Shown piece after piece: positions 4,682 through 64,000 of a stretch of DNA of 64,000 bases. The stretch's first letter is position 1. Each line of letters starts with the position of its first letter. The DNA is from Solobacterium moorei. GTDB lineage: Bacteria; Bacillota_I; Bacilli_A; Erysipelotrichales; Erysipelotrichaceae. The notes beneath the pieces are model-generated. The model was not told the origin of the DNA and searched no databases. It saw only the letters and a list, made by a program, of their open reading frames with translations. The translations under genes were made by a program, and so were the position numbers. Where the stretch lies: NCBI RefSeq assembly GCF_036323475.1, contig NZ_AP028934.1:992001-1056000 (forward strand), given 5' to 3'.

Positions 4682-4907
4682 TTGTATTCAAATATGACTA
4701 TGATATAATTTGCTCGTTAGAATAGACTAACTTATGTAATCTATCTGCATGTCTCTAATTGTGATAAATATGGCGTGAACACTTTAGTAGTCTGTTTAAA
4801 ATATTCGCGTTACAATTTGGAAATGGTAGATGGAATCATGATGAATGATTCTACTTACATAAGAGTGATTACACAGGTAGTGTGATTGATAGACATAGGG
4901 AGAGAAT
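4682..4907 (+). promoter_or_regulatory. probable promoter and long leader of the ABC importer operon
   Basis: TTGTAT and TATAAT lie 16 bases apart (4682-4709). If used, the mRNA leader would be about 190 bases. It contains a perfect 7-bp hairpin, GAATCAT-GATGA-ATGATTC (4833-4851), with no T tract. I looked for a thiamine riboswitch because the importer family includes thiamine-precursor transporters, but its conserved core (CTGAGA and the paired motif) is absent. No other known riboswitch is evident. Confidence 0.45.
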
Positions 4908-13041: not shown

Positions 13042-14316
13042 TTACTTTAGAAGATATGGTTTTAGAATTACTTCGTCTGGTGGGATTTCGGTAATTCCAA
13101 AATCATAGAGTTTCTTGGCCATTTCTTCGTTGTAGAAATGGAGCAGCTGTATGGACGATCTTCCGTGCAGCTTTTCTTTTGGATATGAATTAATATGGAT
13201 ACTGATGAGATTTGCCTTTTCTTGTGATGTAAGTCCCAATGCATGGAGATCACATCCCTTTGGGCATATCTCTCTTACCAATAGATGTAGGTTCTCTAGA
13301 CTACCTTTCTGCCAAGAGGCCATCGAATCACAGTAGAACATACGTGTCCTGCGAGTTCCATCTTCACGTATCTCCGCTTCTTCAGCTAGGACGAATTCAC
13401 TTCCTCTGTCTGTTAATATGACCTCGGCTTCTTTTTCGAACATTTCTTTTCCTAATATCTTTTCCAATAATAGGATCCCATCCAACATATGTAAGGAGTC
13501 CTTTACGGTTTGATAGATACATATCAACAGGTCATACTCTCTGAATTTGAAGGTCTGTAGGAAAGGTCCGTTGGACACGTCGTTGTATACCGTATCCATC
13601 TCTACGACCTTGGCATTTGGATTCTTTTCCATGTATATCAAGAAGTCGGAGTACTTTCTTCCTGTCAGGTATCGATTGTCTTTACGTGGCTTGTATGTAT
13701 TGCGCTTTTGTTTGGACATCTTTCGTCTTACGACACGTTTCAAATCGATGGCACCGATCGATACACCCACATCTTGGAAGACACCATTTTCGATATAGTT
13801 GTATATCGTCTTTTCGGATAGCTTGATCTCTTTGTGGCTTTGAAGAATAGAGTAGATGGACTGACCTTTCTTAATCAATGGTAATAAGAGTTCACCGAGC
13901 TGCTTGATATCATTTACTGTCGCATTGACACCTTGTCGTGAAGATGTAAGTGTCATCTGGTAGTCGTGCTGTGCATCGAGGGCAGAGTATCGATATTTGT
14001 CATAGCGACAAGAGCGATAGTTTCCACATCCATTACAAGCTCCTGGTGACTTGTCCCTGCGAGTACATTTGAAAGGGACATAATCGATACAATCCAGAGT
14101 ACAATAGCGTTCATGTTTACAGCGTTTGTAGTTAGCACACTCTAGAGGCAGATTACATTTGTATGCAAGGAAGCGATGTAGTTTGATTTCTTTTCCTATA
14201 GTTGATTTGTCTTTACCAAGGGTAGTAGCGATAGCTTGTTTGGTAGAACCATTTTCGATACCAGTTTCGATGATCTGTCTATCTGAATAAGACATGTGCG
14301 AATTCTTCGTTAACAT
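13042..14316 (-). CDS. IS30-family transposase (outer element)
   Basis: 424 residues, related to but clearly different from the inner element's transposase. An N-terminal helix-turn-helix (YSDRQIIETGIENGSTKQAIA... DKSTIGKEI) leads to a Cys-rich region (CANYKRCKHERYC, CNGCGNYRSC) and a DDE core: VEMDTVY, LTDRGSEF, and Glu in WQKGSLENLHLLVRE. The ATG at 14316 follows AGGAGG by eight bases. No disruption is seen in the frame. Confidence 0.92.
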   Translation of the reverse strand: MLTKNSHMSYSDRQIIETGIENGSTKQAIATTLGKDKSTIGKEIKLHRFLAYKCNLPLECANYKRCKHERYCTLDCIDYVPFKCTRRDKSPGACNGCGNYRSCRYDKYRYSALDAQHDYQMTLTSSRQGVNATVNDIKQLGELLLPLIKKGQSIYSILQSHKEIKLSEKTIYNYIENGVFQDVGVSIGAIDLKRVVRRKMSKQKRNTYKPRKDNRYLTGRKYSDFLIYMEKNPNAKVVEMDTVYNDVSNGPFLQTFKFREYDLLICIYQTVKDSLHMLDGILLLEKILGKEMFEKEAEVILTDRGSEFVLAEEAEIREDGTRRTRMFYCDSMASWQKGSLENLHLLVREICPKGCDLHALGLTSQEKANLISIHINSYPKEKLHGRSSIQLLHFYNEEMAKKLYDFGITEIPPDEVILKPYLLK

Positions 14317-18960: not shown

Positions 18961-19021
18961 TTGACGAGAAAATCCAAAAGTATTATATTATCCTTAGTTA
19001 GTTTAGCGTAACTAACTAAGG
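18961..19021 (+). promoter_or_regulatory. promoter and large operator dyad of the DUF3793-flavodoxin operon
   Basis: TTGACG and TATATT lie 17 bases apart (18961-18989). Directly after comes a perfect 12-bp dyad, CCTTAGTTAGTT-TAGCGT-AACTAACTAAGG (18992-19021). It covers the expected transcription start and its right arm holds the AAGG ribosome site six bases before the ATG. It could bind an iron- or metal-responsive repressor (the TTAG...CTAA pattern recalls DtxR/Fur-type boxes), or form an RNA hairpin that hides the ribosome site. Confidence 0.75.
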
Positions 19022-19027
19022 ATAATT

Positions 19028-19582
19028 ATGCCGGAAGAACTCATTGTAGAACATTGTGCACCGACATTAGCCGGTGTCAAAACAGGAAACTTATTTAACT
19101 GTGGTTATTCTTGTAAAGAGCAGTTAATGAAGCAGATTGCGGAAATCAATCACCGTTTCAGAAATTGTGATCTTAGAATGACCGTCCTCAGTTATCCAAA
19201 AGATCGAGCACTCATATATCTGTATCGACCAACATGGTTGAAGACAGATTTATCTAAAGAAGATGTTGTTTCGATACTAAAAGAAAGAGGGTATCCTATC
19301 GAAGATATGTCTGCATGTATTGACGTATTGAGTCAACGCATTCAATCGTCAGGACAACGTGTATTCCCACATGAAATTGGATGTTTCTTGGGATATCCTG
19401 CAGAAGATGTTCGAGGTTTTATCGAGGATAATAAACCTTGTAAACTTGTCGGAACTTGGAAAGTTTATGGCAATGAAGAGATGGCAAAACATCTATTCCA
19501 AATATATGAGAAATGTACATATGCATATTTGGAACATTTTGAAAAAGGAATGTCTTTAGAGCAGTTAGTTAGATTTGTCTAA
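19028..19582 (+). CDS. DUF3793-family protein
   Basis: 184 residues that fit DUF3793: CAPTLAGVKTGNLFNC near the start, LRMTVLSYPKDRALIYLYRP, then FPHEIGCFLGYPAEDVRGFI and CKLVGTWKVYGNEEMA. Several Cys are well spaced for metal or cluster binding, but none is proven. The family often lies beside flavodoxin in anaerobic Bacillota, as here, and the function is unknown. The ATG is six bases after the dyad, which decides this start. Twenty bases separate it from the flavodoxin gene. Confidence 0.82.
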   Translation: MPEELIVEHCAPTLAGVKTGNLFNCGYSCKEQLMKQIAEINHRFRNCDLRMTVLSYPKDRALIYLYRPTWLKTDLSKEDVVSILKERGYPIEDMSACIDVLSQRIQSSGQRVFPHEIGCFLGYPAEDVRGFIEDNKPCKLVGTWKVYGNEEMAKHLFQIYEKCTYAYLEHFEKGMSLEQLVRFV

Positions 19583-19601
19583 ATTAAAGGAGGAAAAAAT
19601 C

Positions 19602-20024
19602 ATGAGTAAAGTAGCAGTTGTGTACACAAGTACAACAGGTAACACAGAAAAGATGGCAGAAGCTGTCGCTGAAGGTGCAAAGAGCAAGGGAGCAGAAGTT
19701 GTTGTATTAACAGCAGATGCATTCAACGCTGGTGAAGTAGCTAACTACGATGCAATCGCATTTGGTAGCCCAGCTATGGGTGTTGAACAGCTCGAAGAAA
19801 GTACCTTCGAACCAATGTTCGCAGACGTTGAAGGTAGTCTAGCTGGTAAGAAGGTTGGACTATTTGGCTCCTATGGTTGGGGTGATGGTGAATGGATGCG
19901 TACATGGCAGGATCGTGTAGCAGCAACTGGAGCTGTATTAGTACAAGATGGTGTTATGGCAAACTATGAACCTGATGATGGTGCATTAGCACAGTGCAAA
20001 GCGTTAGGCGAAGCATTAGCTTAA
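19602..20024 (+). CDS. flavodoxin
   Basis: 140 residues, a normal short-chain flavodoxin length. The phosphate-binding loop is TSTTGNTEKMA (residues 9-19), and the later SPAMGVEQLEES and FGSYGWGDGEWM segments form the isoalloxazine-side loops. It replaces ferredoxin as a low-potential electron carrier, usually when iron is scarce, which fits the suggested metal-type operator upstream. Start chosen at the ATG with AAAGGAGG upstream; an in-frame opening at 19575 has no ribosome site. Codon choice is unusually clean, which suggests high expression. Confidence 0.93.
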   Translation: MSKVAVVYTSTTGNTEKMAEAVAEGAKSKGAEVVVLTADAFNAGEVANYDAIAFGSPAMGVEQLEESTFEPMFADVEGSLAGKKVGLFGSYGWGDGEWMRTWQDRVAATGAVLVQDGVMANYEPDDGALAQCKALGEALA

Positions 20025-58464: not shown

Positions 58465-58492
58465 TTGATAAAGTTAGTTTGCTGATACTAAC
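58465..58492 (+). promoter_or_regulatory. promoter-like region with dyad before the DUF438 gene
   Basis: TTGATA and TACTAA, spacer only 15, and a dyad GTTAGT...ACTAAC (58473-58492) that partly covers them. Weak. Confidence 0.3.
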
Positions 58493-63500: not shown

Positions 63501-64000
63501 TGTATCGACCCCAAAAGTTAGACCAAGAATCTAACGAATGGAGGTCGGTATTTTTATGACAAAACACAGTTTTGAATTCAAGAAAAAAATAGTTTTAGAA
63601 TATTTGAATGGTAAAGGAGGAATTCTATATCTTTCTAAAAAATATGGATTAGGCTCTAAATCCCAGCTACACAAATGGGTGAAAAACTATAAAGCATTTG
63701 GAAATGATGGTTTATTGCGCTCACGAGAAAATGAAGTTTATTCTTTCGAAATGAAACTTTCTATTGTAGAGTTGTATTTAACAAGTGAAATCACATATCA
63801 AGAGTTGGCTATACAGAATGGCATTAAGAATCCAGCTACGATTGGCAACTGGGTTAATCGCTTTCGTATAGCAGGTCCTGATGCGTTAAAATCACGTCGG
63901 AAGGGGCGAAGGAAAGCTATGGATAAGACAGATAGAAAGACTCAAAACAAACTCGTAGAAGAGGCATCCGTTAATACAAGTGTAGAACATATAAAGAAAT
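63501..64000. mobile_element. IS3/IS150-type element, left part
   Basis: Starts near TGTATCGACCCCAAAAGTTAGACC, typical of IS150-group ends. Extends past the window. The right end and orfB are not visible. Confidence 0.78.
63556..64000 (+). CDS. IS3-family transposase OrfA-type protein (cut by window edge)
   Basis: The frame is open for 148 codons to the edge. Two helix-turn-helix units: FKKKIVLEYLNGKGGILYLSKKYGLGSKSQLHKWV and ITYQELAIQNGIKNPATIGNWVNRF, then a basic stretch (SRRKGRRK). This is the DNA-binding OrfA half; the DDE half would be encoded in orfB after a frameshift. The start ATG follows GGAGG by 9-10 bases. Confidence 0.82.
   Translation, partial: MTKHSFEFKKKIVLEYLNGKGGILYLSKKYGLGSKSQLHKWVKNYKAFGNDGLLRSRENEVYSFEMKLSIVELYLTSEITYQELAIQNGIKNPATIGNWVNRFRIAGPDALKSRRKGRRKAMDKTDRKTQNKLVEEASVNTSVEHIKK

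Follow-up and report, generated by a model that had tools for sequence, protein, structure and literature searches.

A large inverted repeat at the DUF3793-flavodoxin promoter of Solobacterium moorei, a probable DtxR-type operator

The closest described elements are the operators of DtxR/IdeR in Actinobacteria (TTAGGTTAGSCTAACCTAA), with TTAGGNNNNCCTAA as the site of one IdeR dimer (PMC8464063, in the portion consulted). TTAG-N6-CTAA has this one-dimer spacing, and the 19-bp consensus contains it twice, 5 bp apart. The element described here shares TTAG-N6-CTAA, iron-uptake targets and promoter placement with these operators; however, its motif opens with GTTAG, its half-site is followed by C or T instead of reading TTAGG, its boxes are mostly single or separate, and its proposed regulator lacks the SH3-like domain. 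The second relative is MntR of the Bacillus subtilis type, which has the same two-domain size as this regulator and is its best sequence match among solved structures; yet the protein falls under the NCBIfam MntR cut-off, carries a His where MntR has a Glu ligand, and would serve targets that include feo and flavodoxin genes.

According to the passages of PMC10317159 at hand, low-GC Gram-positives use Fur for iron, and their DtxR proteins are limited to manganese; similarly, an excerpt of PMC7762939 states that, among the members described to date, those lacking the SH3-like domain are unresponsive to iron in vivo. In Clostridioides difficile, the iron regulator studied is Fur (PMC6311696, excerpt), and fldX, likewise a flavodoxin gene, is up when iron is withheld; as described in the consulted part of that report (PMC10913485), fldX is monocistronic, unlike the DUF3793-flavodoxin operon. 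Open-licence papers, which are weak evidence of absence, yielded nothing on the motif, on DtxR in Erysipelotrichaceae or on DUF3793 function. This kind of element is already known; judged by the same literature, the motif, its reach over Erysipelotrichales and Clostridia, and its link to a short DtxR, to DUF3793 and to flavodoxin or NrdI are apparently new.

The window, i.e., the whole stretch of 64,000 nucleotides that was analysed, contains the following features at this locus:

18961..18966, + strand: -35 box TTGACG, seen in the sequence and also chosen by promoter picking blind to the box (locus L005)
18984..18989, + strand: -10 box TATATT, spacer 17, also chosen by promoter picking
18987..19026, no strand: whole dyad, two perfect 17-base arms and a 6-base loop, from an inverted-repeat search with a chance test
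18994..19019, no strand: putative operator core TTAGTTAGTT-N6-AACTAACTAA, the proposed DtxR-family binding site
18997..19016, no strand: the box as GTTAG-N10-CTAAC, offset 13 bases from the first -10 base
19018..19022, + strand: likely ribosome site AAGGA, partly within the right arm, by eye
19028..19582, + strand: DUF3793 gene, 184 aa (PF12672, E 2.9e-55)
19602..20024, + strand: short-chain flavodoxin gene, 140 aa (PF00258, E 5e-19; TIGR01753 above cut-off)

The PF12672 and PF00258 matches bear out the identities originally given to the two genes. The dyad is real and larger than the original prediction stated: the 12-bp arms then described (18992-19003 and 19010-19021) were correct as far as they went, indeed starting two bases past TATATT and ending six bases before the ATG at 19028, and 5 bp per arm were missed. 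At full length the arms (18987-19003 and 19010-19026; 17 nt each, 100% complementary, 6 nt apart) extend over the final three -10 bases, and the right end lies one base 5' of the DUF3793 ATG. These are the longest perfect arms in the window at loops of 3-10; of 60 first-order Markov sequences, each 64 kb long, 59 had a longest arm of 8-12 bases and one reached 14.

We favor the reading, to which we give a probability of about 0.68, that the dyad is a DtxR-type operator of the DUF3793-flavodoxin operon and part of a metal regulon, most likely one for iron. A homodimeric DtxR-family repressor carrying a divalent metal (Fe2+ being the most likely) would sit on the dyad over the transcription start and block RNA polymerase; under iron scarcity, this repressor would lose its metal and leave the dyad, and the operon would be turned on, so that flavodoxin and DUF3793 would be made alongside uptake proteins for iron and other metals under the same box. 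Flavodoxin is an iron-free stand-in for ferredoxin.

The core 26-mer has a single exact copy, in the window and in the 2.6-Mb genome alike; three mismatches admit one further genome copy, before a gene that resembles EcfT by eye. Since the exact copy is unique, the search was shifted to a shorter core motif, GTTAG and CTAAC with a gap between them, which is the part found to be conserved by comparing relatives. With gaps of 0-16, the genome has 17 sites at gap 6 and 8 at gap 10, excesses with Poisson probabilities of 3e-16 and 6e-6; another 8 sites, at gap 9, are near-identical copies of one sequence, and the 14 other gaps together give 13 sites, on average about one per spacing. The other spacers served as control because a backwards pattern, which often exceeded the motif count (e.g., 167 vs 58), proved an unfair null. 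Thus, the suggested genome search for further copies of the dyad failed for the exact 26-mer and succeeded for the shorter motif, which recurs at genes including feoA/feoB. A copy of the gap-9 repeat, GTTAGACCAAGAATCTAAC, lies in the window at 63517-63535 (G000:C1:1055517).

Two further sites fall in the window:

4716..4731, no strand: exact GTTAG-N6-CTAAC, 12 bases past the first base of TATAAT (4704-4709)
58473..58492, no strand: GTTAG-N10-CTAAC, just 5' of a hemerythrin-PAS gene (ATG 58507)

The first of these (L055) precedes a gene for an NMT1/phosphonate-type binding protein (4908). Elsewhere in the genome, gap-6 sites lie before feoA/feoB, a ZnuA-type binding protein gene (two boxes), two Trep_Strep ECF transporter genes, an ABC transporter gene, class I aldolase and phospholipid-methyltransferase-like genes, a thiamine transporter gene (two boxes, about 400 bases away) and a surface-type protein gene that has no Pfam family. 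The shared theme of the box-bearing genes is metal uptake and use, which does not account for the aldolase, thiamine transport and methyltransferase sites. Among the 17 exact N6 sites, one is intragenic (L054) and two have no clear target (L057 and L058); the 8 N10 sites include an identical pair next to a repeated element (L097) and one intragenic site (L098). Class I fructose-bisphosphate aldolase is the metal-free type, and the box just 5' of its gene (L048) might mark a metal-sparing switch. The L097 pair, at about 1040 and 3175 of that locus, is one 20-base palindrome (GTTAGTTAACATTAACTAAC) present twice at a distance of about 2.1 kb, with the same left flanks; the two copies surround transposase-like frames and mimic the N10 box. 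Near-identical 424-aa frames at 13042-14316 of the window and at 1718-2992 of L057 appear by eye to be copies of one transposase.

The box is conserved with the operon. DUF3793 was matched in 35 of 60 related genomes, and 30 of these matches were taken as loci. In the genus of the window, an exact box (gap 6 or 10) lies within 200 bases 5' of DUF3793 in 14 of 17 loci, with a flavodoxin-like sequence following DUF3793 by eye. In the other family of the order, the flavodoxin-like gene comes first and DUF3793 second in 12 of 13 loci, and in all 12 an exact box precedes or overlaps the first gene's start; L014, the remaining locus, pairs a lone DUF3793 gene with a double box. Three of these first genes (L019, L027 and L030) are NrdI, according to Pfam in three of three and NCBIfam in both of the two tested; NrdI is the flavoprotein of class Ib ribonucleotide reductase. 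Because the box stands at the first gene in both orders, it is tied to the operon promoter while the first gene changes. Many DUF3793 promoters (L018, L013, L004, L017 and others) are double, with a box close to the -35/-10 spacer and another at the start site, the distances varying.

A scan of named genomes confirmed nothing when a single DUF3793 sequence was the query and at least 586 stretches when an alignment was used; the best 80 of these, mostly clostridial, were kept, and the counts that follow refer to them. In the 300 bases upstream, exact boxes number 68 at gap 6 and 2 at gap 10, and the 15 other gaps have none. An exact box is present at 43 of the 80 loci and absent within 300 bases at 37; TTAG-N6-CTAA occurs in 4 of the 37 other loci (L113 left out). 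Flavodoxin is the direct same-strand neighbor of DUF3793 in 44 of the 80.

Which protein would read the box? DtxR-family genes were found in 58 of the 60 related genomes. The genome of the window has one, at about 757.1-757.5 kb (L096, G000:C1:755000-760000); its 125-aa product matches PF01325 with 46.4 bits and PF02742 with 48.8 bits (cut-offs 26 and 27). The domain matches stop at residue 120, and the C-terminal SH3-like domain is absent; the NCBIfam MntR equivalog scores are 80.2 and 76.4, below the cut-offs of 153 and 138. Of 32 dtxR promoters read, a set that includes L102-L104, chosen for boxes already seen there, and the misread L094, which is not a DtxR, 7 have an exact box and 11 a box at up to one mismatch; L070 and L088 yielded no frame. 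The window's own dtxR promoter has no box, nor do any of 20 further dtxR promoters of the same genus; a DtxR-like frame lies within 2.5 kb of DUF3793 in 6 of the best 80 of at least 586 named loci, two of them weak. In Anaeromassilibacillus sp. An200, one box lies between a divergent DUF3793-flavodoxin pair and dtxR, and another heads a feoA and feoB set adjoining a second dtxR; this genome has six dtxR genes, and 11 of 17 boxes are no more than about 15 kb from one of them.

Box density tracks short DtxR genes, a comparison confounded by kinship, base composition and genome size: among 149 genomes, classed by frame length (G078, with a 154-aa frame, grouped with long), there are 2.81 boxes per Mb in those with a short DtxR (26), 0.16 in those with long ones only (11) and 0.66 in those with none (112). 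Restricted to the 11 short-DtxR genomes that belong to neither of the order's two families, the density is 1.14 boxes per Mb, and G202, the sole genome of the window's family that gave no DtxR match, has no box. The half-site geometry, the boxes at some dtxR promoters and this density pattern lead us to prefer DtxR over Fur. The early guess of a metal-dependent regulator holds up in its general form, given the sites at feo and other metal genes, and as far as sequence can tell, the regulator probably belongs to the DtxR rather than the Fur family. Like DtxR/IdeR sites, the boxes are placed over iron-uptake promoters (the feoA/feoB sites, and the position at the -10 box); the half-site spacing fits for the motif class, in which gap 6 dominates, and for the window's own site with one mismatch.

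Several observations weigh against the DtxR-operator reading. The window's site is of the rarer N10 form, which the same protein would have to read, and the best N6 box inside it (18997-19012) has one mismatch. The dtxR gene is itself box-less in this genome and in the 20 further same-genus promoters, as are the 37 named loci counted above, and the regulator, with no third domain, has MntR as its closest solved structures. Some of the 17 gap-6 sites precede genes that have no evident connection to metals, or are situated within or next to unrelated genes.

We lean toward iron as the signal because feo and flavodoxin genes are among the targets. The main rival, that the same operator and regulator family answer to manganese or to iron plus manganese in an MntR-like regulon, is unlikely. 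It draws on the solved structures, on the best NCBIfam rows, which are MntR though below the cut-offs (80.2 vs 153), on the ZnuA-type binding protein among the targets, and on the metal site: ligands Met10 and Cys102 favor iron (PMC10317159, as far as consulted), and the window's protein has an Asp where iron sensors have Met. Against it stand the feoA/feoB and flavodoxin targets and the relatives: at the Met10/Cys102 positions, the window's species has Asp and His, its genus mostly Asp and Cys, and the other family mostly Met and Cys, so that the iron-sensor Cys is kept in the same genus and the pair in most of the other family. Besides this His in place of Cys, the window's DtxR has Asn for a conserved His; both positions align with MntR metal ligands, and by eye the conserved His and Cys persist in the 30 remaining aligned rows (with the misread L094 set aside) and in all 20 further proteins of the same genus.

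A Fur-family protein (PerR-like, next to rubrerythrin) would be the reader according to a second rival, which we consider improbable. Reviews, in the parts consulted, assign iron control in low-GC Gram-positives to Fur, and one of the gap-6 sites, an exact box, lies upstream of the genome's one clear Fur-family gene. In relatives, however, 8 Fur-family genes were read and none has the box; compared by eye, the published Fur consensus GATAATGATAATCATTATC (source seen in part) is unlike the motif.

The DtxR-operator reading predicts a site in DNA, and the place of the box relative to the promoter bears on this point. In 106 upstream regions, the best -35/-10 pair was picked without using the box; 51 had a pair, and 45 of these also had a box. 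A box starts 13-17 bases past the first -10 base in 30 of the 45 promoters, whereas 20,000 random placements gave 1.5 such promoters on average and 8 at most; the window's core is at offset 13. In a few promoters (e.g., L027, L030, L031 and L167), the picked -10 TAACAT overlaps a box. The interquartile range is 13-16 for the -10 offset vs 19-94 for the distance to the gene, which ranges from 12 to 230 and, for named loci, runs to the match start, which may differ from the start codon. In 6 of the 45 promoters, a box lies within the untranscribed -35/-10 spacer. Since the box-less same-genus loci L009, L011 and L012 were left out, together with L113 (same contig as L006), the test speaks to position, not presence. 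A box that is fixed to the -10 element and variable to the start codon points to a DNA operator rather than an RNA hairpin.

It had also been proposed that the dyad, folded as RNA, hides the ribosome site; we now regard this as very improbable. The right arm does overlap the likely ribosome site, and the predicted fold contains a 10-bp stem, but folding of the transcript from 18994 gains nothing over shuffled sequences (z -0.82, with 44 of 200 shuffles as good). RNA synthesis likely starts at about 18996, within the left arm, and in relatives the position of the box is constant with respect to the -10 element rather than the start codon. That the dyad is a chance palindrome has next to nothing in its favor: the outer 7 bases of each arm, outside the shared motif, may be chance, yet the motif excess, the conservation before DUF3793, the -10 offset and the Markov arm test all speak against it.

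What DUF3793 does is a separate question. Its predicted fold is confident (mean pLDDT 96.5); the model has no Foldseek match among solved structures at E 0.001, and the best row of a second structure comparison is 2guk (Z 6.2, rmsd 3.7, 104 residues), from which no function follows. All of 48 DUF3793 sequences compared share PHEIG, FL, YP and a single invariant Cys, and a full-text literature search on the family returned nothing beyond fungal splicing work.

A broader scheme, which we offer tentatively and rate at somewhat less than even odds, joins these threads: short SH3-less DtxR proteins, not Fur, may be the main iron repressors of Erysipelotrichales and many gut Clostridia, acting via GTTAG-N6-CTAAC; in the window's species, with the operators kept, the metal site would have been rebuilt (His to Asn, Cys to His); and DUF3793 would be a new low-iron partner of flavodoxin-fold proteins, be it flavodoxin or NrdI. 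If this is true, a rebuilt sensor with unchanged operators would be a natural experiment in the change of metal preference. An iron regulon under a short DtxR would depart from the Fur-iron and DtxR-manganese rule (PMC10317159, in the passages seen), and a box at feo and flavodoxin genes that tracks the short DtxR makes for a direct test of the statements taken from parts of PMC10317159 and PMC7762939. Through the box, the metal regulon of many uncultured gut species could also be recognized by a simple sequence signature, and DUF3793 would gain a functional context. Within the operon itself, an AGTTAG-N6-CTAACT box with one mismatch (19567-19584) spans the end of DUF3793, just 5' of the flavodoxin ribosome site.
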